NCBI GenBank assembly: GCA_032622095.1
Contig: CP136066.1
Coordinates: 98,105,319-98,169,318, forward strand
From: Siphonodentalium dalli
Lineage: Eukaryota; Mollusca; Scaphopoda; Gadilida; Siphonodentaliidae
Reading direction: 5' to 3'
DNA: 64,000 bases
The translations under genes and the position numbers were made by a program. The notes under the pieces were generated by a model. The model was given only the letters and a program-made list of their open reading frames with translations. It did not search any database and had not been told where the DNA came from. Positions 22,068 to 63,977 of this stretch are shown here, in pieces; within the stretch, counting starts at the first letter, position 1; every line of letters begins with the position of its first letter.

Positions 22068-22374
22068 TTAAGTTTTCACACAGTGTATACTATTCAACAT
22101 GGCATACACCCACTTCGCCTTTGGTACTATAACACATATACAAACCAATAGCATATACTTCAAGTTTCCTTCGACCTAGCCAGCCAGTTGCGTCTGATCC
22201 GTAGTGCCAAACCATTTTATGATGTTGCAACATTTACTGAAATGAACGTGCACATTTCTTTCCACCAGTATAATCCGTGCATTTCTTGGAATCATTATGA
22301 CGAAACAACCGCCCAGAGACGTGACGACAGGGAGGGGGGTTGGGGTGGCTCACCCCCCCCCCCAACTTTGGTCC

Positions 22375-23290
22375 AAATTTTCAACAGTTGGAAATTTCAT
22401 ACCTGCCAAAACATTAGTTGGAAATTTAAAACCAACAATAGGTTGAAAATGTTCTTGTAGTCTGATTTTCAAACAATATATAGGGGGAATACAAATTTTT
22501 TGGACCAATATTTGCATATTTTCCTATTTGTTGTCAAAATTTTGGACTGAAATGGTCATCATGTTTGAAATTTTCCAACCTTAGAGGGGTGACAGGTTGG
22601 AAATTTCCAACAGGTTGGAAATTTCCAACACTTGGAAATATTGTGTCCTGGTCCCTACCCCCGTGGCCAGTCAAAAACTGCTAGTTAATTTAAGAAAACA
22701 ATATATTGTCATACATTTGGTGAACATTGTCATTGGAATTGTCATCAGTTGGAAATTTTCCAACCTAAGTGGGGGTGTCAGGTTTGGAAATTTTCGACTC
22801 TAGGAAGGCTTGAGGCCAGTCTAGATGCTAGGATTTTGCGATTTTCTTGTTTAGATTTCAAAATTTTCGCACACCGGGCCGAGGCATGGTCGGCCCGGTG
22901 TGTCATTGTCCCTCCCCCGTGGCCAATACAATACTGCTGATTAGTTTAACAATATTTTACTACATTTTGTCAAACTTGTGGACTGAAATGATCATCAGTT
23001 GGAGAATTTTCCAACCTGTGGGGGAGTATGGAGTTTGAAATTTCCATCACTATAGGAAAGCTTCAGTTCAGGCCAGGCTAGATGCTAGGATTTGCGATTT
23101 TCTTGTATAGTTTTCAAAATTTTCTCACACCGGGCTGAACAACCATGGTCGGCCCGGTGTGTCCTGGTCTCTTGTCATATCCGTGTGCATTTGTCTGGAA
23201 TTAGACCACTAGATGTTAGGATTTATGCAATTTTCAGGTTAAAATATGTGAATGTTCTCACACCGGGAATATAGAACCATGGTTTATGGA
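22375..23290 (+). repeat. TTGGAAATTTCCAAC repeat block with CACACCGGGCCG hairpins
   Basis: There are many copies of gttggaaattt(t)ccaac in both orientations. Two tandem subunits (about 22800-23050 and 23050-23280) each hold ggctagatgctagga, tttctcacaccgggc-like sequence and a hairpin cacaccgggcc / ggcccggtgtg. The same family is inverted at 24220-24650 and 58260-59960. Frames within are by-products. Confidence 0.75.
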
Positions 23291-23305
23291 TATACAGGAT
23301 ATTAA

Positions 23306-23458
23306 TTAGGCCTGAGCACAGAGGTGCAAGGGGGAGGGTGCAAATGGAATTATTCAAAACTTGTGTTTTGTCTGATTTTAATTCAAGGGGGGGGGGGGGG
23401 GGTGCAGTTAGAATTTCCTAATGTGGTCACACCCCCGACAGAACTAGCCACGTCCCTG
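23306..23458 (-). repeat. GTGCAGTTGG repeat copy with 16-G run
   Basis: This is the inverted relative of copies at 57640-57790 and 58945-59085 (shared words: gaattcc/ggaattatt, tgcaccccc/gggggtgca, cctgagcac). It contains G16 at 23387-23402. Confidence 0.55.
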
Positions 23459-23599
23459 CTGAACCGCCGAATCAACAAAATAATTAATTCAGGCCCATAG
23501 TCATTCAAACTTCAACATAACACATATTGATGATCACAAAACACCGAGCGAGTCGTGTCTATAACGCATTGTTCACACAGTATATTGACAGACAGAAAT

Positions 23600-23770
23600 A
23601 TCATATTACCACCCGCCTGACATATTGAAACAACCGAATACCGTCCAACATTTCTTATTATGCCATATATAATATATACATGTATACCTGTACTGAAATA
23701 TATTGTATATTATATCCATATATATCTGTAATGTCTTAATTTGACGATCAGAATAAACTAATTGAATTGA
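23600..23770 (+). mobile_element. Possible LINE 3' tail
   Basis: The sequence ends in cagaataaactaattgaattgaattgg. An AATAAA-like word followed by a short TTGAA microsatellite is the usual form of many non-LTR retrotransposon 3' ends. No coding part was recognised upstream, so this is tentative. Confidence 0.25.
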
Positions 23771-23814
23771 ATTGGAAGGTTAGATGCAGCGCAGAGATAT
23801 GTTTCTTGGTTGCC

Positions 23815-23835
23815 GGGGGGGGGGGGGGGGGGGGG
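23815..23835 (+). repeat. Poly(G) run of 21
   Basis: A homopolymer of 21 G, the longest G run in a region with several. The only longer homopolymer in the window is C27 at 24293-24319. Length may be unreliable in sequencing. Confidence 0.9.
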
Positions 23836-23977
23836 TATGCAGTTTTTTTCCAGACACAACTCGCGGGTGGGTGGGTGGCTGTGTCGGGGCCGAAAAAATT
23901 GAGAAATGCATTTTTTTCCTACACTGAAATGTACTCATTTTGTCCTTTATGGGAAGCCAAATTGACATTTAATAAAT

Positions 23978-24207
23978 AATTGGGCTTAAGCGAAATAAGT
24001 ATTCTCTAATTGCACTTAAGCACAATAAGGGAAGATGTAATTGAACTTAAGCGCAATAAGAAAATATCTAATTGTGCTTTAGCACAATAAGGAATATCTT
24101 ATTGCGCTTAAGGAATATCTTATTGTGCTTAAGTGCAATAATGAATCTCTAATTGCATGCACTTAAGTGAAATATAAGGAATAATCGTTTAAGCGCAATA
24201 AGGAATT
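23978..24207. repeat. Tandem repeat of about 35 bp, GCTTAAGCGCAATAAGG
   Basis: Roughly seven imperfect units carry cttaagcgcaataagga and its inverse attgtgcttaag, so each unit is partly palindromic. Related sequence lies at about 39470-39500 and 39865-39905, on both sides of the element at 39497-39861. Confidence 0.75.
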
Positions 24208-24219
24208 TTGAAATCTGAA

Positions 24220-24650
24220 CAAGAAAATCGCAAAATCCTAACATCTAGACTACCTTCAAGTCTTCTTAGAGTTGGAAATTTCAAACCTGACACCCCCCCC
24301 CCCCCCCCCCCCCCCCCCCACTTAGGTTGGAAATTTTTCAACTGATGACAATTCCAATGGCAAAGTTGACCAATTGTATGACAATATTGTTTTCTTAAAT
24401 TAACTAGAAGTTTTTGACTGGCCACGGGGGAGGGACCAGGACACCTGTCACCCCCACTAAGGTTGGAAAATTTCCAACTGATGACCATTTCTGTCAAAAT
24501 TTTTGACAAAAAATAGGAACATATGCAAATTTGGTCGAAAAACAATAAATTCCCCCCAATAAATTGTTTTTACCTGAAATTAGGAATTTCCAACTATTGA
24601 AAATATAGCTCTCTGCTGGGGGGGGGGGGTGAGACACACCCACACCCCCC
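24220..24650 (-). repeat. Inverted copy of the TTGGAAATTTCCAAC repeat block, with C27
   Basis: This is the reverse complement of the 22375-22800 block: gttggaaatttcaaacctgac, a run of 27 C (24293-24319), then ggttggaaatttttcaactg, ggccacgggggaggga and a G12 run at 24618-24629. The 118-codon minus frame across it is repeat-derived. Confidence 0.75.
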
Positions 24651-39861: not shown

Positions 39862-40287
39862 GGCTGAAGCGTAATTAGAGATTCCTTAAGTTATTGCGGT
39901 TAATCGAAATTATCTATTAAATGTCAATTTTGATTCCCATAGAGATCATCAATGATGTCTATGCTCAGGGGCGACGTGTCAATCTTCGCTATTGGGGTTC
40001 CAATTGTTGGCTCATTAAATATGCACATATGCTTAAGATACAGTCGCGCACGAAGCGAGCTCCCGTAAGTCGGGTTTTGGATCCCATGCAGTTAATGAAA
40101 ATATTATTGAAATAATCGGTTTCCTCCAATAAACAACCATATATTCAATATACATGTTTTGGAGAAGAATTAGGCAGTCCATATTGGACGCCATCATGGA
40201 ATTTATTTTTGTTTGTTTAATTTTCACACATATTTATTAGTTATGTGGATGGAGTTCTCATTAAACCTAACATCCTTAAATTGGTTA

Positions 40288-40765
40288 CAGTAATGCCCAA
40301 AGTAATTGACCACTTAATCATATCAGAATTATTGGTAATTTTTCAGGATTTAAAATCCTGAAAAATTACCCATTATTCTGCTGTGGTTAAGTGGTCAATT
40401 ACTTTGTACATTACTGTATGAGGATTGAGTTATCATTACACCTCAAATCCTTATATTGGTTACAGTAATGCCCAAAGTAGTTGACCACTTAACCACAGCA
40501 GAATTATGGGTATTTTTTCAGCATTTAAAATCCTGACAAATTACCAATAATTATGTTGCGGTTAAGTGGTCAATTACTTTGGACATTACTGTATGAGAAT
40601 TGAGTTATCATTACACCTCAAATCCTTATATTGGTTACAGTAATGCCCAAAGTAATTGACCACTTAACCACAGCAGAATTATGGGTAATTTTCAGGATTT
40701 AAAATCATGAAAAAATACCCATTATTTTGCTGTGGTTAAGTGATCAATTACTTTGGACATTACTG
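40288..40765. mobile_element. Three Tc1/mariner-type MITEs in a 175-bp tandem array
   Basis: Elements at 40288-40416, 40463-40591 and 40638-40765 are 128-129 bp hairpins with TA-flanked CAGTAATGCCC and ...ATTACTG ends. The spacers (gagttatcattacacctcaa, tccttatattggtta) are also repeated, so the whole 175-bp unit was duplicated after insertion. Paired arm words are ccacagcagaattatgggta and ttacccattattctgctgtgg. Confidence 0.88.
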
Positions 40766-41841
40766 TATGTAGATGGAGTTAAACCTCACATCAGTGTGTT
40801 GTGGATTTGGACCTTGACTTGGGACCTTTTGTTTTTAACGCGACAAATGCGCGTACACCTTATACACAAATTTCTTTATATATGTAACCAGAGTTTTTCT
40901 TGGATAAGATGAGTTTGAAGCCTGCTTACATTTCAAAATGTTGTCAGTTTTATATTGTCTGCAGCGGAACTCAACGCGTTGAAGCAAAAGTTACAAAAGA
41001 TAAAATGTGTACGTAACGAGACTATAATACAACTGAAAAAATAAATTGAGGGAGGGGTGGGCGATACAGGGAACTAAGGGTTGAACCGATATAAATTTGT
41101 AGAGCGATAACGACCAATGTTGACATATTATGCATCTGAACTCTACTGTTGCAACAAGGCTATAAAATAGGGTGGTGTCAGAATCTTAGTCATCTCTATA
41201 TAGTGCCAGAATAGTCATTTATGGACTTCTATAAGAAAAGATGTTGGGTTGGTTATATGGACTCGGAGAAAAAGTGGTTTGTACCGATGAACTGACATAA
41301 ATTAGTGGAGCGATGTTGCATCGCGACTGTACTAAAGCAGCAATGATATAAAATTGGGGGGGGGGGGGGGTATGAAATTATCTATCTCTATAGATGGCAC
41401 CAGGATTATATAGAAAGGAATAGCAATTGATATACGGTATACTATAGTAATACCACAGACATATAAGTACAAGTATCACGTGATAAAATATTACGTAACG
41501 TGACTATACCGATGAAAGAAAGAAATAAATTGGACCGGGATTAGAGGTTGGGTTGGTTATATGTGGATAATTGGATATGGAATTCATACCGATGAAACGA
41601 TACAAATTAGTGGAGCGATAAAGACCAATGTTGACACTTAGTCAGGCTACGCGGTAGAAAATAGGGGTTGATACGATAGACCAAAATAAATTTGTCGGGT
41701 GATAATGACCAATGTTGACCTATAAATTAACGCGACTATACTGTCGCATAATTATCAGGTGTAACCAGTCAAATATGGACTCTAGTGACCTATATAGAAC
41801 AGCTCAGAAAACATTCGCAGGGCCCTAAAATTTATTTAACG
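40766..41841. repeat. Degenerate local repeats around AGAGCGATAACGACCAATG
   Basis: Words such as ataaatt.gt.gagcgataa.gaccaatgttgac and gttgg.ttggttatatg.a occur several times (about 41090, 41230, 41300, 41550, 41610 and 41690), with a G15 run at 41356-41370. No coding frame was recognised. Confidence 0.5.
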
Positions 41842-42190
41842 ATGCATTTGCCATTAAAATCGATTTATGTCGATAAAACTGTCATTTTTCAAAATTTTAA
41901 GCTGAGACTTGGAGTGTGTGTGTGGGATAGCTACATATTCCTAAAATGACAGAGTACAGCACGTAATTATGTTTTAGATGGAAGAAATTAATTTTTTTCA
42001 ATGATAAAATTTAACATAGAATTTACCATTAAAATCTATTTATGTCGATAAAACTGTCATTTTTCAAAATTTTAGGCTGAGACTTGGTGTATGTGCGTGG
42101 GATACATATATGTTCCTAAAATGACAGAGTCCAGTGCGTAATTATGTTTTAGATGGAATAAATTGAATTTGTTTTCGATAATAAATTTGC
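41842..42190. repeat. Tandem duplication of about 170 bp
   Basis: Two units share attaaaatc.atttatgtcg, ataaaactgtcatttttc and taattatgttttagatgga. They differ by scattered substitutions. Confidence 0.8.
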
Positions 42191-44664: not shown

Positions 44665-44890
44665 AAACTGGCGAGCGTACATGTACGTACTTGTCACACA
44701 TTATTTACAGTATACGAGAAGGTGACATTTTTGGCGAGAACACTTTTTCGAGAAGCAAATCACGTGACTTCGGCAGTGCATGGTCGCGCAAAAGCGCGGA
44801 CTCAGTAACGAACCATCGCGATGAAACGAAAACAAATGTCACTTCACAACTGACGATATGTGATCATGAACAATTGTATTTTGCGTTTTA

Positions 44891-47800
44891 TAATCAGTTA
44901 CTAGGTTCATAGTAGATCAATTCATAATCAGTTATTACGTTCATAGTAGATCAGTTTATTATCAGTTATTATGTTCATAGTAGATCAATTTATAATATGT
45001 TATTAGGTTCATAGTAGATCAGTTTATAATATGTTATTAGGTTCATAGTAGATCAGTTTATAATCAGTTATTATGTTCATAGTAGATCAGTTTATAATCA
45101 GTTATTAGGTTCATAGTAGATCAGTTTATAATCAGTTATTATGTTCATAGTAGATCAATTTATAATATGTTATTAGGTTCATAGTAGATCAGTTTATAAT
45201 CAGTTATTATGTTCATAGTAGATCAGTTTATAATCAGTTATTAGGTTCATAGTAGATCAATTTATAATCAGTTATTAGGTCCATAGTAGATCAGTTTATA
45301 ATCAGTTATTAGGTTCATAGTAGATCAATTTATAATCAGTTATTAGGTTCATAGTAGATCAATTTATAATCAGTTATTAGGTTCATAGTAGATCAATTCA
45401 TAATCAGTTATTCGGTTCATAGTAGATCAGTTCATAATCAGTTATTAGGTTCATAGTAGATCAGTTTATAATCAGTTATTATGTTCATAGTAGATCAGTT
45501 TATAATCAGTTATTACGTTCATAGTAGATCAATTTATAATCATTTATTAGGTTCATAGTAGATCAGTTTATAATCAGTTATTAGGTTCATAGTAGATCAA
45601 TTCATAATCAGTTATTAGGTTCATATTAGATCAATTCATAATCAGTTATTAGGTTCATAGTAGATCAATTCATAATCAGTTATTAGGTTCATAGTAGATC
45701 AATTCATAATCAGTTATTATGTTCATAGTAGATCAATTCATAATCAGTTATTAGGTTCATAGTAGATCAATTCATAATCAGTTATTAGGTTCATAGTAGA
45801 TCAATTTATAATCAGTTATTGGGTTCATAGTAGATCAATTCATAACCGGTTATTAGGTTCAAAGTAGATCATTTCATAATCAGTTATTAGGTTCATGGTA
45901 GATCAATTCATAATCAGTTATTGGGTTCATAGAGGATTAATTTATAATCAGTTATTCGGTTCATAGTAGATAAATTCATAATCAGTTATTAGATTCATAG
46001 TAGATCAATTTATACTCAGTTATTAGGTTCATAGTAGATCAGTTTATAATCAGTTATTAGGTTCATAGTAGATCAATTTATAATCAGTTATTAGGTTCAT
46101 AGTAGATCAGTTTATAATCAGTTACTAGGTTCATAGTAGATCAGTTCATAATCAGTTATTAGGTTCATAGTAGATCAGTTTATAATCAGTTATTATGTTC
46201 ATAGTAGATCAGTTTATAATCAGTTATTAGGTTCATAGTAGATAAGTTTATAATCAGTTATTAGGATCATAGTAGATCAGTTTATAATCAGTTATTAGGT
46301 TCATAGTAGATCAGTTTATAATCAGTTACTAGGTTCATAGTAGATCAGTTTATAATCAGTTATTAGGTTCATAGTAGATCAGTTTATAATCAGTTATTAG
46401 GTTCATAGTAGATCAGTTTATAATCAGTTATTATGTTCATAGTAGATCAATTCATAATCAGTTATTATGTTCATAGTAGATCAATTCATAATCAGTTATT
46501 AGGTTCATAGTAGATCAGTTTATAATCAGTTATTAGGTCCATAGTAGATCAGTTTATAATCAGTTATTAGGTTCATAGTAGATCAGTTTATAATCAGTTA
46601 TTAGGTTCATAGTAGATCAGTTTATTATCAGTTATTAGATTCATAGTAGATCAATTTATAATCAGTTATTATGTTCATAGTAGATCAATTCATAATCAGT
46701 TACTAGGTTCATAGTAGATCAATTTATAATCAGTTATTAGGTTCATAGTAGATCAGTTTATAATCAGTTACTAGGTTCATAGTAGATCAGTTTATAATCA
46801 TTTATTAGGTTCATAGTAGATCAGTTTATAATCAGTTATTAGATTCATAGTAGATCAATTTTTAATCAGTTATTATGTTCATAGTAGATCAATTCATAAT
46901 CAGTTACTAGGTTCATAGTAGATCAATTTATAATCAGTTATTAGGTTCATAGTAGATCAGTTTATTATCAGTTATTAGGTTCATAGTAGATCAGTTCATA
47001 ATCAGTTATTAGGTTCATAGTAGATCAGTTTATAATCAGTTATTAGGTTCATAGTAGATCAGTTTATAATCAGTAATTAGGTTCATAGTAGATCAGTTTA
47101 TAATCATTTATTAGGTTCATAGTAGATCAGTTTATAATCAGTTATTAGGTTCATAGTAGATCAATTCATAATCAGTTATTAGGTTCATATTAGATCAATT
47201 CATAATCAGTTATTAGGTTCATAGTAGATCAATTCATAATCAGTTATTAGGTTCATAGTAGATCAATTCATAATCAGTTATTATGTTCATAGTAGATCAA
47301 TTCATAATCAGTTATTAGGTTCATAGTAGATCAATTCATAATCAGTTATTAGGTTCATAGTAGATCAATTTATAATCAGTTATTGGGTTCATAGTAGATC
47401 AATTCATAACCGGTTATTATGTTCAAAGTAGATCATTTCATAATCAGTTATTAGGTTCATGGTAGATCAATTCATAATCAGTTATTGGGTTCATAGAGGA
47501 TTAATTTATAATCAGTTATTCGGTTCATAGTAGATAAATTCATAATCAGTTATTAGATTCATAGTAGATCAATTTATAATCAGTTATTATGTTCATAGTA
47601 GATCAATTCATAATCAGTTACTAGGTTCATAGTAGATCAATTTATAATCAGTTATTAGGTTTATAGTAGATCAATTCATAATAAGTTATTAGGTTCATAG
47701 GAGATAAATTCATAATCAGTTAGTAGGTTCATAGTAGATCAATTCATAATCATATATAAGGTTCATAGTAGATCAGTTCATAATCAGTTATTAGATTCAT

Positions 47801-49957
47801 AGTAGATCAATCTACAATCAGTTACTAGGTTCATAGGAGATCAATTTATAATCAGTTATTAGGTTTATAGTAGATCAATTCATAATAAGTTATTAGGTTC
47901 ATAGGAGATCAATTCATAATCAGTTATTAGGTTCATAGTAGATCAATTCATAATCAGTTATTACGTTCATAGTAGATCAATCTACAATCAGTTATTATGT
48001 TCATAGTAGATCAGTTTATAATCAGTTATTAGGTTCATAGTAGATCAGTTTATAATCAGTTATTAGGTTCATAGTAGATCAGTTTATAATCAGTTATTAT
48101 GTTCATAGTAGATCTGTTTATAATCAGTTATTAGGTTCATAGTAGATCAGTTTATAATCAGTTATTAGGTTCATAGTAGATCAGTTTATAATCAGTTATT
48201 AGGTTCATAGTAGATCAGTTTATAATCAGTTATTAGGTTCATAGTAGATCAGTTTATAATCAGTTATTATGTTCATAGTAGATCAGTTTATAATCAGTTA
48301 TTAGGTTCATAGTAGATCAGTTTATAATCAGTTATTAGGTTCATAGTAGATCAATTTATAATCAGTTATTATGTTCATAGTAGATCAGTTTATAATATGT
48401 TATTATGTTCATAGTAGATCAGTTTATAATCAGTTATTAGGTTCATAGTAGATCAGTTTATAATCAGTTATTAGGTTCATAGTAGATCAGTTTATAATCA
48501 GTTATTAGGTTCATAGTAGATCAGTTTATAATCAGTTATTAGGTTCATAGTAGATCAGTTTATAATCAGTTATTAGGTTCATAGTAGATCAGTTTATAAT
48601 CAGTTATTAGGTTCATAGTAGATCAGTTTATTATCAGTTATTAGGTTCATAGTAGATCAGTTTATAATCAGTTATTAGGTTCATAGTAGATCAGTTTATA
48701 ATCAGTTATTATGTTCATAGTAGATCAGTTTATAATCAGTTATTAGGTTCATAGTAGATCAGTTTATAATCAGTTATTAGGTTCATAGTAGATCAGTTTA
48801 TAATCAGTTATTAGGTTCATAGTAGATCAGTTTATAATCAGTTATTAGGTTCATAGTAGATCAGTTTATAATCAGTTATTATGTTCATAGTAGATCAATT
48901 TATAATCAGTTATTACGTTCATAGTAGATCAATTTATAATCAGTTATTAGGTTCATAGTAGATCAATTTATAATATGTTATTATGTTCATAGTAGATCAA
49001 TTTATAATCAGTTATTATGTTCATAGTAGATCAATTTATAATGTTATTAGGTTCATAGTAGATCAATTTATAATCAGTTATTAGGTTCATAGTAGATCAA
49101 TTTATAATCAATTACATTAGGTTCATAGTAGATCAATTCATAATCAGTTAGTATGTTCATAGTAGATCAGTTTATAATCAGTTATTAGGTTCATAGTAGA
49201 TCAGTTTATAATAAGTTATTAGGTTCATAGTAGATCAATTTATACTCAGTTATTAGGTCCATAGTAGATCAGTTTATAATCAGTTATTAGGTTCATAGTA
49301 GATCAGTTTATAATCAGTTATTAGGTTCATAGTAGATCAGTTTATTATCAGTTATTAGGTTCATAGTAGATCAGTTTATTATCAGTTATTAGGTTCATAG
49401 TAGATCAGTTTATAATCAGTTATTAGGTTCATAGTAGATCAGTTTATTATCAGTTATTAGGTTCATAGTAGATCAGTTTATTATCAGTTATTAGGTTCAT
49501 AGTAGATCAGTTTATTATCAGTTATTAGGTTCATAGTAGATCAGTTTATAATCAGTTATTAGGTTCATAGTAGATCAGTTTATTATCAGTTATTAGGTTC
49601 ATAGTAGATCAGTTTATTATCAGTTATTAGGTTCATAGTAGATCAGTTTATAATCAGTTATTAGGTTCATAGTAGATCAGTTTATTATCAGTTATTAGGT
49701 TCATAGTAGATCAGTTTATAATCAGTTATTAGGTTCATAGTAGATCAATTTATAATCAGTTATTAGGTTCATAGTAGATCAGTTTATTATCAGTTATTAG
49801 GTTCATAGTAGATCAGTTTATAATCAGTTATTAGGTTCATAGTAGATCAGTTTATTATCAGTTATTAGGTTCATAGTAGATCAATTTATAAAAAGTTATT
49901 AGGTTCATAGTAGATCAATTTATAATCAGTTATTAGGTTCACAGTATATCAATTTAG
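44891..49957. repeat. 34-bp satellite array, about 149 copies (5.07 kb)
   Basis: Consensus parts are ataatcagttattaggttca then tagtagatcagttt. Most monomers are exactly 34 bp. Variation is concentrated at a few sites (ttagg/ttatg, tcagttt/tcaattt/tcaattc, ataatcag/ataatatg/attatcag). A rare variant run (cataaccggtta, gtagatcatttc, atagaggattaa) occurs at 45841-45994 and again at 47405-47558, 1,564 bp apart, exactly 46 monomers. The array is free of long frames. Monomers grow more uniform towards 48-49.9 kb. Confidence 0.97.
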
Positions 49958-50521: not shown

Positions 50522-50655
50522 ATTAAAGATGGAGTATCTCTTTAAGTACCAAATTTGAGATAGTTGCGTGGGCATACAATAATAATAATGAATTGACGAC
50601 CCCTGTCCGGAAATACTTCTATCAATTATTACTGATTTTATTTCGAATATTTATA
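50522..50655 (+). repeat. CCTGTCCGGAAATACTTCTATC repeat family, copy 1
   Basis: It shares gtatctcttt, cctgtccggaaat.cttctat and tgattttatttc.aatattt with 60368-60500, and the inverse with 51420-51560. A hairpin follows directly. Confidence 0.7.
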
Positions 50656-50818: not shown

Positions 50819-51344
50819 TATATACATTTAGCGAAAAAGCCACTTTTGTAAATTTATTTAAATCGAAAAGGGTATCGTGACAAGATCAGCCAAAAATACC
50901 CAATAGCACCCTTGGCAAAAGTTAATAGGAACAATTTCTCTTCATATTGAAACCCGATGATGTATTAAGTCAGTCCTGCGCGAGTCCAAATGCGCCCAAA
51001 ACATTACGCGTTCGTCTTTCCAAACATAATGACGTATCGATGGTGTTATTAGCTTGGTGTTATGAGGCGATGCGCATTCACCGAGAAATAACTGCAACTA
51101 GCCACGTGGGCGCCGACCAATCAGAATGCTGGATTTAGTGATGACAACACTTAGTGTGTAAATATAATAAATTGAGACACTTTGTTTGTATATTTTTAGA
51201 ACATACCATTCGGGTGATACCATACATCGATAGAGAGCAGTAGGCTGCTCCTATATCTACGTACCGAACGTCAAATGTCCCAGATTGATTGATTGTATTG
51301 TTTTGTTCCATAGTTATAAGCGACAATGAGTGTTATTATCGTTT
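50819..51344. other. No gene recognised
   Basis: Two frames of 63 codons (50947-51138 plus, 51135-51326 minus) have no domain and no support. Confidence 0.4.
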
Positions 51345-51570
51345 AGTTTTGACAAAATTACACAATAAAAGTTTGGTGTATGTTAACAGTAACCACTAGT
51401 GTTCGTTAGCTAAACAACCACACCTTTATAGACCAGAAAATAATCTAAATAAAATCCGTTTTAATAGATAGAACCATTTCCGGACAGGAGTCTTCTATTT
51501 CATATCTAGTATTTTCTACCCCGGTAACTATATAAAACATGTATACAAAGAGATAATCCACCTTTAATAT
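51345..51570 (-). repeat. CCTGTCCGGAAATACTTCTATC repeat family, inverted copy 2
   Basis: This is the reverse complement of 60368-60595: acaaaattacacaat, ggttagctaaacaac-like, ctatttcggacaggagtctt-like and agagataatccacctttaa blocks are in the same order. Copies 2 and 3 face each other across 8.8 kb. Confidence 0.8.
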
Positions 51571-55689: not shown

Positions 55690-57270
55690 CTACTTGTGTG
55701 CAATCTTATGTACGGTCATGCGACTGTTCTGCACACACCTCGCACGGATAAGGACGATCGCCGGTGTGTGTTCTTTTATGAACGGTGGCTTGAGATAAAA
55801 TAGTGAATGATTTCTCACACACATCGCACTGATACTGACGTGTGAATTTGTGTGGATTTGCATATGTAAGGTCAGAGTTCCCGAATGTGTAAATGCGTTA
55901 AAGCATATCTCACATTCAAATGATCGAGTCCCAGTTTTCTTGTGTTTAGTCCGGTTAGAAGACCGGGTGAAAGGTTTCCAAACAGATATACACTGATATT
56001 GGCGATCTCCTGCGTGGACTCTCTTATGTATTATCAGGTTAGTATTCTCAGCGAATGACTTCTCACACATATCACACGGATACGGACGCTCTCCCGTGTA
56101 GGTCCTCTTATGTATTATCAGGTTAGTATTCTCAGCGAATGACTTCTCACACATATCACACGGATACGGACGCTCTCCCGTGTAGGTCCTCTTATGTATT
56201 ATCAGGTTAGTATTCTCAGCGAATGACTTCTCACACATATCACACGGATACGGACGCTCTCCCGTGTAGGTCCTCTTATGTATTATCAGGTTAGTATTCT
56301 CAGCGAATGACTTCTCACACATATCACACGGATACGGACGCTCTCCCGTGTAGGTCCTCTTATGTATTATCAGGTTAGTATTCTCAGCGAATGACTTCTC
56401 ACACATATCACACGGATACGGACGCTCTCCCGTGTAGGTCCTCCTATGTATTATCAGGTTAGTATTCTCAGCGAATGACTTCTCACACATATCACACGGA
56501 TACGGACGCTCTCCCGTGTAGGTCCTCTTATGTATTATCAGGTTAGTATTCTCAGCGAATGACTTCTCACACATATCACACGGATACGGACGCTCTCCCG
56601 TGTAGGTCCTCTTATGTATTATCAGGTTAGTATTCTCAGCGAATGACTTCTCACACATATCACACGGATACGGACGCTCTCCCGTGTAGGTCCTCTTGTG
56701 TATTATCAGGTTAGTATTCTCAGCGAATGACTTCTCACACATATCACACGGATACGGACGCTCTCCCGTGTAGGTCCTCTTATGTATTATCAGGTTAGTA
56801 TTCTCAGCGAATTACTTCTCACACATATCACACGGATACGGACGCTCTCCCGTGTAGGTCCTCTTATGTATTATCAGGTTAGTATTCTCAGCGAATGACT
56901 TCTCACACATATCACACGGATACGGACGCTCTCCCGTGTAGGTCCTCTTATGTATTATCAGGTTAGTATTCTCAGCGAATGACTTCTCACACATATCACA
57001 CGGATACGGACGCTCTCCCGTGTAGGTCCTCTTATGTATTATCAGGTTAGTATTCTCAGCGAATGACTTCTCACACATATCACACGGATACGGACGCTCT
57101 CCCGTGTAGGTCCTCTTATGTATTATCAGGTTAGTATTCTCAGCGAATGACTTCTCACACATATCACACGGATACGGACGCTCTCCCGTGTAGGTCCTCT
57201 TATGTCAGATGTTTTCTCTGGGTGAATAATTGCTCACACACATCGCACCCATACGGACGATCACTGGTGT
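55690..57270 (-). pseudogene. C2H2 zinc-finger array: 14 near-identical fingers flanked by decayed ones
   Basis: The core (55987-57162) is fourteen 84-bp units in one frame, each a canonical C2H2 finger (CDMCEKSFAENTNLIIH plus KRTYTGERPYP linker). Such proteins bind DNA. Helix residues at -1, 2, 3 and 6 are E, T, N and I in every unit. Units are almost identical even at silent sites; seen changes are one Lys to Arg, one silent His codon, and a Ser codon turned to TAA in unit 5 (56812-56814). Upstream, a finger CDVCEQLFTQRKHL lacks about 5 nt before its last His, shifting frame. Downstream, fingers lose a Cys (CISVW), lose the final His (HKKTGTRSFEC) or need frame changes (YQCDVCEKSF in another frame, then MTVHKIAHK). 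Two open stretches remain, 56812-57162 and 55690-56742. As written it looks like a decaying gene with a recently homogenised core. Whether either half is expressed is unknown. Confidence 0.85.
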
Positions 57271-57320
57271 GGATAATAATACTATATACGCAATATTTAT
57301 GAGTTGTATAAGAACACAAT

Positions 57321-57365
57321 CAGTCAGATGCTCGTAGCCCGTTTATATATAACCATGGGTATATG
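57321..57365 (+). repeat. 45-bp perfect inverted repeat, left member
   Basis: From cagtcagatgctcgtagccc to accatgggtatatg. The exact reverse complement is at 60280-60324. Identity stops abruptly at both edges of both copies. Confidence 0.9.
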
Positions 57366-57639
57366 CGAAAATACACAACGAAAACACACTCCACAGTTTG
57401 GATCGATAAGTCTTGCCCTGTGTATTTTGATGTTGAATTTTTTGACAATCGGTCTTCCGTATCATTTCTACAACACAATTATCGTCTTACCTGCAGCACG
57501 ACTTTATCGTGTGATCGTCAAGGAAGCGTTTTATTTCAGAGTATGGCTAATACATTGCCGCCGGTGAAGTGTATTGTCGGATAAGAAACAAATAAGCATA
57601 TGCCGAGGGCAGAAACTAAAGTTGCGAGAGGCACCCCTG

Positions 57640-57790
57640 GTTGAGTGTGGGATATTTGGCACTCGAGACTTGGTTAGAGGGTTTTCGTTGGGGTGGTCTC
57701 CACCTTGGAATTTCCAACTGCACCCCACCCAATTGAACCACACCAAACTCATAAGTTTGCGTAAGTCAATTTACACCCCCCTGGATTTTT
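57640..57790 (+). repeat. GGTGGTCTCCACC repeat copy
   Basis: It resembles 58945-59085 (shared ggttt.cgtt.gggtg, ccacc.tggaa..tccaactgcaccccc, aatt.a.aatcaccccaaac). An inverted relative is at 23306-23458. It supplies the first half of a long plus-strand frame (57574-57963), whose N-terminal part is therefore not a gene. Confidence 0.65.
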
Positions 57791-58072
57791 CCCAAATGTT
57801 CCCTCACAGACTACCAGATGGTAGACTATTCAAAATGAAACAGAGAGTTGTTATACCATGGAACAATTTACCAGAGATGATTGTTTCATCCGTCAACCTG
57901 ACGCAGTTCAAAGAACTGTTTGACTCATATCTCTATAGCCAGAAATGTGAGTACGATGAGTGATTTTAACATATTGTGTTTATGATTACGATTTATATCC
58001 ATGTTTCAAATCGGAACAAAAAGTCGGATGACTTGTTTCGAAATAAATGATACTGATACTGATACTGTGGCC
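57779..58072 (+). mobile_element. 3' end of a truncated LINE retrotransposon
   Basis: The frame ends RVVIPWNNLPEMIVSS then NLTQFKELFDSYL and stops at 57961-57963. The pattern R-x-V-x-x-W-N-x-L-P followed by L-x-x-F-K-x-x-[L/F] is the classic C-terminus of non-LTR reverse transcriptases of the CR1/Jockey type. A short 3' UTR, aaataaatgatactg and a (GATACT)n tail follow, as expected for such elements. The reverse-transcriptase core is absent (5' truncation), so it cannot move. Confidence 0.8.
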
Positions 58073-58083
58073 ACTTGTCGTGC

Positions 58084-58097
58084 GGGGGGGGGGGGGG
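58084..58097 (+). repeat. Poly(G) run of 14
   Basis: Homopolymer directly after the LINE tail. Confidence 0.9.
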
Positions 58098-58129
58098 TGA
58101 AAAAGATGGCTCGGCCCAGTATGAGATTA

Positions 58130-59970
58130 AAACATCTTAACATCTAGTGGTATAACACCACACAAATTTACACCCCGATCTATTTTTTCTTAAATTAATT
58201 AGCGAGTAACTACTGGCAAGGACACAGAACACACGGGTCGGCCGATGGTTAGGCCCGATGTGAGAACATTTTTGAAATATGAACATGAACATTTGACAAT
58301 CCTATAGCATAGACCGGCCTCAAGTTTTCCAATTCTGGGAAATTATTAACCTGACACTCACCCATAGGTTTCAAAATTGCCAACTGATGGCCATTTGAGT
58401 CCATAATTTTGCAAATGAAAGGGAAATATGCAAATGTTGGTCTAAAAACAACGAATTCGTCACTAAGAAAGTGTTGGAAAATCAAACTACGAGAACAATT
58501 TCAACCTAATTTTGGTGTGAATTTTCCAATTAATTTTGCTCGGGGTATTAGGTATGACTACAATTGGGGGTAAGACCCCTGCATAACCACCCCTGTCGGC
58601 AAGTCCCTACTTGACACCCTATTCTAAATAATCGATACTAAGTTATGTTGGGTGGCACGGGGGGGGGGGGGGGGGGGGTCAGGGGCTACATCCCAGCCCT
58701 GTCGGGAGTCATAGCCATCCCCCGTCGGTGAGTTATGTAATTGTCAACCCGCCAGGGGATATCCTGGTGCCACCCCTGTTTGAAATCATATAAAACTTTT
58801 AAAGAAGACCACATATTGAACAGAAATCAGAGGGAAATGAGCTCTCGTAACCACAAAAGTGCACTAAAGACATCCCAATAAATCCAAATTAGATGCAACC
58901 GCATATTGTATATATATGGCATCGTTCTGTTTGCCTCTCTATATCCAGGGACGTGGCTATATGGTTTCCGTTAGGGGGTGTCCACCATGGAAAATTCCAA
59001 CTGCACCCCCTTGAATCAGAATCACCCCAAACATAAATTCCATTTGCACCACCCCCCCTTACATCAGTGCTCACGCCTAATATCCTATATATATTAAAAA
59101 AAAACCTATATTCCAGGTTTGAAAATTCAGATAGTTGAACCTGAACAATTGCATAAATCATAACATCTAATGGTCTAACTGCAGACAAATTCCCACGGCT
59201 ACGGGCAAGAGGCGGGGACACACCGGGTTGACCATGGTTCTTCGGCCCGGTGTGAGAAAATTTTTAAAACTATAAAAGAAAATATTAAATCCTAGCATGC
59301 ATCTAGACTGACCTCAATTGAACCTTTCCTGGTGTTGGAAATTTCAAACCTCATACTCCCCCTCAGGTTGAAAAACTCTCCAACTGATGACTATTTCAGT
59401 CCACAAGTTTGACCAAATGAAGTAAAATATTGTTTTGCAGTTTTGTATTGGCCACGGGGGAATGGACAATGACAACGATAGTCGGCAATTTTTTTTTAAT
59501 CTGAACAGGAAAATCTCAAAATCCTAGCATCTAGACTAGCCTCAAACCTTCCTAGAGTTGGACATTTCAAACCTGACACCCCCACTTAGGTTGGAAAATT
59601 CCAATGACAATATTTACCAAATGCATGACAATATTGTTTTCTTAAATTAACTAGCATTTTTTTTGACTGGCCACGGGGGAGGGACCAGGACACAAACTGT
59701 CCCAAGTGTTGGAAATTTCCAACCTGCCACCCTCCTAAGGTTGGAAATTTCCGACTGATGACCATTTCAGTCCAAAATATTTACCAAAAATAGGAAAATA
59801 TGGAAATAATTTGTTTGAAAATCAAACTACAATAACATTTTCAACTTAATGTTGGTGTGAAATTTCCAACTAATGTTTTGGCAAGTATGAAATTTCCAAC
59901 TGTTGAACATTTTGACCAAAGTTGGGGGAGGTGAGACATCCCAACCCCCACCCCTGTCGCCACGTCTCTG
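58130..59970 (-). repeat. Large block of the TTGGAAATTTCCAAC / CACACCGGGCCG repeat family
   Basis: Inverted relative to 22375-23290: a hairpin cacaccggg...cccggtgtg (59219-59254), tcctagcatgcatctaga, gttggaaatttcaaacct, ccactgatgaccatttcagtcc-like and ggccacggggga repeated several times. It contains G20 at 58659-58678 and a GTGCAGTTGG-type copy (58945-59085). The 110-codon minus frame at 58889-59221 is repeat-derived. Confidence 0.75.
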
Positions 59971-60279
59971 TCTATATCATATAAATACTTTTTCTAAAAA
60001 CCCTTAAACCAACTCGACGTGCGATTTCCCTGCGCTCCTGTTGCGCATATTCTAGTATAAAAAGTGCGTCTATTTCAGACAAAGTTCAAACAGTAAATGT
60101 GACCAGACAAGACATAGAAACCGCTAATCTCATATTACCAATCTGACAACACCAGTCGAACATGATTACCTTTCAAAGCAATAACACCGGGCACCATGTT
60201 ACGGACAACCACAGGCACGCACACCATGGATAAATACACGGTGAAAAGAACGGCGTTTTTTTTGTACGGTTATATCTGA
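59971..60279. other. No gene recognised
   Basis: Short single-copy-looking stretch between the repeat block and the 45-bp inverted repeat. Confidence 0.4.
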
Positions 60280-60324
60280 CATATACCCATGGTTATATAT
60301 AAACGGGCTACGAGCATCTGACTG
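60280..60324 (-). repeat. 45-bp perfect inverted repeat, right member
   Basis: Exact reverse complement of 57321-57365. The pair encloses the LINE end and a repeat block. No matching target duplication could be read at the outer edges. Confidence 0.9.
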
Positions 60325-60367
60325 ATAATGTCTATATTTTAATGTTCATTCTGTTTGTGGCAGTTTT

Positions 60368-60595
60368 AAAGGTGAATTATCTCTTTGTAAGCATGTATTA
60401 TATAGTTACCGTGGTATAAAATATTATATATGAATCAAAGACTCCTGTCCGGAAATGCTTCTATCGATTAATATTGATTTTATTTCAAATATTTTCTGGT
60501 CTAAAAGTTGCGTTGTTTAGCTAAAGAACAAGAGTGGTTACTCTTAACATAGACCATAACTGTCATTGTGTAATTTTGTCACAAATAAACGTTAA
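60368..60595 (+). repeat. CCTGTCCGGAAATACTTCTATC repeat family, copy 3
   Basis: Direct relative of 50522-50655 and inverse of 51345-51570. It starts near ttttaaaggtgaattatctc and ends near tgtaattttgtcacaa. Confidence 0.8.
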
Positions 60596-60599
60596 TTAA

Positions 60600-63359: not shown

Positions 63360-63977
63360 AGACCTCTGTTTGTTTGTTTGTCTGTCTGTCTGTATGTTTG
63401 TCTGTCATTTATACAAATCTACGATTCTCGACCGATCGGGACGAAACTTGGTACGTGTGTGTAGTTTGACCAGGCGGTGGACGTTGTCGTATTGGCGAGC
63501 CCGTGCGGCGCCCGCTTCGCGCATGCGCAACGAGATCTCGGAAACGGGTGGAGCTATCGACTTGAAATTTGCTATGTGAATGTATCTTGCCCCGGATACG
63601 AATTTTATCGGGTCGCCGAGCCCGTGCGACGCCAGCTTCGCGCATGCGCAGACGAGATCTCGGAAACGGGTGGAGCAATCGACTTGAAATTTGGTATGTG
63701 AATGTATCTTGCCCCGGATACGAATTTTATCGAGTCGCCGAGCCCGTGCGACGCCAGCTTCGCGCATGCGCAGACCAGATCTCGGAAACGGGTGGAGCTA
63801 TCGACTTGAATTTTGCTATGTGAATGTATCTTGCCCCGGATACGAATTTTATCGGGTCGCCGCGCCCGTGCAACGCCAGCTTCGCGCATGCCCAGACCAT
63901 ATCTCGGAAACGGGTGGAGCTATCGACTTGAAATTTGGTTTTTGGATAGCCCGGACAACGTCGGGCTCATCGGCTAG
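63360..63977 (+). mobile_element. Tandem-repeat element with Helitron-like 3' end
   Basis: A TTTG/TCTG microsatellite (63366-63408) is followed by about four units with a 122-bp period (tcggaaacgggtggagc at 63538, 63660, 63782 and 63904; gccagcttcgcgcatgcgc in each). The element closes with a hairpin (agccc...gggct, 63948-63967), six bases, then CTAG|T at 63974-63978. A short hairpin before CTRR-T is the mark of Helitron 3' ends. Non-autonomous Helitron-like elements with tandem-repeat cores are known from bivalves (the 'pearl' type). Frames in several registers on both strands follow the 122-bp repeat and are not genes. Confidence 0.6.

Follow-up and report, generated by a model that had tools for sequence, protein, structure and literature searches.

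Probable recent amplification of one finger to 14 tandem copies in a putative C2H2 zinc-finger pseudogene of Siphonodentalium dalli

How does a run of 14 nearly identical zinc-finger units come to stand between decaying fingers, and does it still encode a protein? The window, that is, the whole stretch of 64,000 nucleotides that was analysed (C6:98105319-98169318), carries on its minus strand 14 tandem 84-bp units plus nine bases, 1185 bp in all (14 × 84 + 9), hereafter referred to as the core (Table 1). TRF returned 84 bp × 14.1 copies with 99% matches and a score of 2349, which places the run far beyond chance. The units are distinguished by three single-base changes, each confined to one unit and none common to two, namely, the TAA in unit 5, a silent CAT-to-CAC change in unit 6, and a K-to-R replacement in unit 9. 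Identity at a lag of 84 bp was 0.976 to 1.0 inside the core, fell to about 0.2 to 0.3 beyond the 5′ edge (coding sense), and went to 0.75, then 0.57, and then about 0.2 to 0.5 beyond the 3′ edge; the drop came within about one unit on either side, and the end units were as uniform as the central ones. Consisting of tandem, near-identical units within the range of about 10 to 100 bp in one local array, the core has the structure of a minisatellite. Helix positions -1 to 6 are unchanged in all 14 units.

An in-frame ATG is present in every unit, within CDMC, and the TAA splits the core into open blocks with 4 and 9 whole units, the latter belonging to an open frame of 373 amino acids that spans nine units and the 3′ flank. 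On these points, as on the 14 near-identical units and the position of the TAA, the preliminary description of this DNA proved accurate. We found no evidence for the two blocks as coding units; each ATG lies between the two zinc-binding cysteines, and with a period of 84 bp a frame stays open of its own accord. Neither an open frame nor near-perfect identity is thus a sign of selection in a finger array, because the period alone accounts for the open frame.

Table 1. Features at and around the finger array (window coordinates)
Feature	Position	Strand	Remarks
Four fingers or remnants after the array	55690..56020	-	End in VHKIAHK and a stop
Array of 14 × 84 bp + 9 bp	56021..57205	-	Unit GERPYPCDMCEKSFAENTNLIIHKRTYT; bounded at each end by ACATAAGAG; C2H-Y in 13 of 14 units, C2H2 in the last
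TAA stop in unit 5	56812..56814	-	
Finger remnant before the array (IIHTSDRPYGCDVCEQLFTQRKHL)	57206..57279	-	Frame differs from that of the array; by eye, 5 bp are missing where the two meet
Transposon, about 3 kb	57319..60326	.	Perfect 47-bp terminal inverted repeats, 57319-57365 and 60280-60326
218-bp piece inside the transposon	57844..58061	+	Resembles the 3′ end of a LINE, with a tail of the TGATAC type (assigned by eye)
Dispersed 233-bp repeat	60366..60598	-	40 bp beyond the transposon

The core had been described as C2H2, a label that did not hold. Tyrosine replaces the second zinc histidine in 13 of the 14 units, which end in TY, and only unit 14, ending in HKRVH, retains it, which makes the core C2H-Y. 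It is nevertheless still recognized by the Pfam models zf-C2H2 and zf-H2C2_2 (four reading frames at the array scanned). A functional C2H2 array would hold two cysteines and two histidines in each finger and a continuous frame through the array and its neighbors; here, tyrosine stands in for histidine in nearly every unit, unit 5 has its TAA, and the frame changes on both sides.

Finger arrays are abundant in this genome, among others on C1, C2, C3, C6, and C7. For comparison, we used 39 arrays chosen from matches resembling the core or flank rather than at random (L062, L063, and L064 for a listed stop), which are not independent, as L017/L018 and L025/L026 look like mutual duplicates. From this set, L015 had been removed (overlapping L035) and L007, L008, L010, L011, and L012 excluded (overlapping L024, L023, L029, L030, and L031, respectively). 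Only 13 of their 592 fingers lack the second histidine, and 3 of these 13 carry tyrosine, in a count that skips stop-holding fingers and thus leaves unit 5 out of the row for the window. Tyrosine by itself is no proof of gene death, since L031, an array of 17 fingers without a frame change, has a single tyrosine finger.

The sequence on either side of the core is decayed. Judged by eye in three frames, the 5′ finger lacks 5 bp, the first 3′ finger is missing one cysteine and one histidine, and the last was shortened by a deletion that breaks the frame; in FECEIC...HMQIH and YQCDVC...HKRTH, no ligand is lost, but their frames differ. By this inspection, three of the five flanking fingers or remnants are broken and two have all four ligands, so that the earlier statement that the flanks had lost Cys, His, or frame is right for the flank overall but not for each finger. 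Over about 396 bp, no fewer than five lesions can be read in the flanks: besides the missing 5 bp and the out-of-frame deletion, there are a frameshift and the losses of one Cys and one His. This count is small and was made by eye. The 1185 bp of the core contain one stop and no indel, against about 15 lesions expected at the flank rate. The core thus looks younger than the decay of the flanks, and because about 15 lesions were expected and one stop was found, the death of the gene probably preceded the expansion. Finger homology is recognizable at the locus (Pfam; matches to other arrays) alongside disabling lesions (by eye), as in a pseudogene. A search of the window with 23 finger proteins, extending beyond the transposon, gave no finger match outside 55696-57327; the 5′ part of the gene is therefore missing or beyond recognition in the window.

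The edges of the array suggest how the expansion took place. The same nine bases, ACATAAGAG, corresponding to the codons around HKR, open and close it, and from these identical edges we infer that one finger lay, before the expansion, between the HKR of its upstream neighbor and its own HKR. We consider it likely that the locus is a C2H2 zinc-finger pseudogene and that a recent tandem amplification, by exchange within HKR, turned this one finger into 14 copies. The exchange points would have fallen in the conserved HKR codons, at the ends of the upstream neighbor and of the founder, and the repeated unit would span from the mutated linker of the neighbor to the founder's own HKR. The neighbor's linker, with Tyr for His, would then have been copied into every new unit, the amplification spreading the ligand defect of the neighbor to all copies but the last, and the founder's own end, HKRVH, would persist as a single copy behind the last unit. 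The three point changes, including the stop, would date from after the expansion. This history is reconstructed from the anatomy of the array rather than from observed steps.

Among 27 loci compared, the best-matching unit outside this array shows about 80% identity. As the best unit elsewhere reaches only this value, the comparison of sequences suggests that the array probably arose in place. We also considered and rejected two other origins. As for a dispersed satellite, all 100% matches among those listed lie at the locus itself and the best elsewhere is 79%, in a genome search in which only the best candidates were scored. As for transposon cargo, the inverted repeats of the neighboring element bracket nothing but sequence that lies upstream of the array, and the match ends between 57305 and 57323 in the nine loci compared, with one further partial copy, in L038, starting at 57378.

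Tandem 84-bp finger units are known from two related systems. PRDM9 is a coding minisatellite of 84-bp fingers that evolves by duplication, deletion, and conversion (PMC3890296); ruminant PRDM7 has retained its 84-base units but bears multiple disruptive mutations (PMC4874674). The array shares with PRDM9 the tandem finger units of near-perfect DNA identity and with PRDM7 the presence of 84-base units in a broken gene. It differs from both in that the core is invariant at the DNA-contact positions, according to the numbering that we assumed, and in that 13 units lack the second His. Units of PRDM9 vary at these positions, while none of the 14 core units does, and we do not claim that the array belongs to PRDM9. 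Broken 84-bp finger minisatellites are, with PRDM7, already in print, and the array is ordinary in kind. A literature search on tandem repeats in zinc-finger pseudogenes found nothing on point, judging by title and start of abstract; we do not claim that the spreading of a His defect is absent from print. The cephalopod C2H2 expansions (PMC12513265) are comparable in forming large poly-finger gene families.

Within the genome, the most similar arrays we describe are L021, L025, and L026, which are built of 84-bp CDxCEKSF...HKRxHTG-type units and in which adjacent units are at least 97% identical over 4.2 to 5.0 units. In contrast to the core, they have the second His in all fingers counted, and their homogenized stretches reach at most 743 bp (looser measure) versus 1194 bp here. 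The 4.2-unit run of L021 stands in an open frame of 1152 amino acids, whereas L025 and L026 combine homogenized runs with frame changes. The latter two (C7:174.99 and 175.25 Mb) are duplicate-looking arrays of homogenized SFTTSTQATVHKRTHTGDRPYQCDVC units in which the frame changes 2 and 3 times, respectively. In L062 (C3:64178500-64182000), for which a TAA is listed in the array, a run of nine consecutive fingers recurs 1845 bp away with its finger residues unchanged, a block duplication within one array.

These arrays bear on the question of whether the core, in either case part of one broken gene, expanded in a burst or was kept uniform by ongoing unequal exchange or gene conversion, that is, by steady-state concerted evolution. 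PRDM9-type finger arrays evolve in the latter way (PMC3890296). In this genome, adjacent units are at least 97% identical in 7 of the 39 other arrays, over up to 5.0 units (in L026) versus 14.2 here, and stretches of at least 96% identity at a lag of one to five fingers (the looser measure) occur in 22 of the 39, the longest being 860 bp (L051) versus 1194 bp here. Duplication that frequent inside arrays is as compatible with ongoing exchange as with a burst. What speaks against steady exchange is the lack of any variant common to two units and the end units being as uniform as those in the middle. In simulated arrays of constant size undergoing duplication and deletion, with no change in length (three mutation rates, 3,000 runs each), three variants all lying in single units were seen in only 15 of 317, 40 of 564, and 27 of 462 of the runs that had three variants (5 to 7%), so that the model leans slightly toward a burst but is no proof of it. 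In view of the sharp edges, the lack of shared variants, and the uniformity of the end units, we weakly favor the view that a gene already dead underwent a burst recently, rather than homogenization over a long time, and regard steady exchange as unlikely. The idea in the preliminary description of a minisatellite-like core in a broken gene is supported, all the more so with 13 of the 14 units devoid of the second His; the homogenization by exchange or conversion that it proposed is less supported than a burst.

Two further explanations have to be weighed against a burst in a dead gene. If the locus were still a working gene, the array would encode a repeated C2H-Y protein, or two of them split by the TAA, as might be suggested by the 373-amino-acid frame open over nine units and the 3′ flank and by the persistence of the Pfam zf-C2H2 and zf-H2C2_2 matches. 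The 84-bp period, however, holds the frame open without selection, the ligand is lost in 13 units, both flanks contain frameshifts, and a 3-kb transposon lies 40 bp upstream; a working gene is thus scarcely credible, and a protein product is presumably absent. The number of units, on the other hand, could reflect false expansion or collapse in the assembly, which would be compatible with the other readings, near-identical repeats being prone to assembly error. Yet an array of 1.2 kb is short by the standard of long reads, units 5, 6, and 9 are each set apart by a difference of their own, and the 9 contigs for 2.2 Gb suggest an assembly at chromosome scale, which makes an artifact very improbable.

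Whether exchange within HKR is a general, phase-dependent route to wholesale loss of zinc binding in poly-finger genes is more doubtful than the history of this one array, and we put it forward only tentatively. If it were, with exchange falling in the nearly invariant HKR codons, a duplicated finger would owe the linker behind it, second His included, to its upstream neighbor. One broken His could then cover a whole array in a single expansion, and one would expect other arrays whose units, except for the last, all carry the ligand defect of a neighbor. No second array with a neighbor's defect spread over its copies was found among the 39 (L062 and L031 inspected). None of the other tyrosine fingers (one in L031, two in L062) is a copy of another; the L062 pair, 240 bp apart, matches at 63 of 84 bases. 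The spreading of a His defect as a general process thus rests on a single case, with none in the 39 arrays. The locus offers a small, clear example of a coding repeat that seemingly expanded after its gene broke, and it is slightly instructive in that its edge structure suggests where finger arrays recombine; otherwise, it represents ordinary decay within a genome rich in zinc-finger arrays.

The array-side end of the transposon recurs at 97 to 99% identity over about 378 to 397 bp in 39 of the 42 matches listed elsewhere, from a search in which 40 of 1,883 candidates were scored. The 218-bp piece inside the element is absent from six of the nine transposon loci fetched and present in L040 and L041, and both states occur in L038. 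Parts of the fetched loci also match 22314-24552 of the window.

The 233-bp repeat beyond the transposon is also found at 51335-51567 and 50523-50652. It lies within about 1 kb of 17 of the 39 finger arrays, versus none of the nine fetched transposon loci, and several loci have a second, inverted partial copy; it is possible that the repeat is enriched in zinc-finger clusters. We considered whether it is the normal upstream part of zinc-finger genes; at the 17 arrays, it occurs on both sides and in both orientations, and it is dispersed over the genome, for which reasons we take it to be a mobile repeat.

Another minisatellite, with a 34-bp unit in about 149 copies, occupies 44887-49956, some 6 kb away from the finger array; 44 of its 45 genome matches listed are at its own locus, and the remaining one, on C5, is weak and covers 38 bp. 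Other tandem repeats (122 and 175 bp) lie at 63496-63937, 40242-40781, and 41834-42185.
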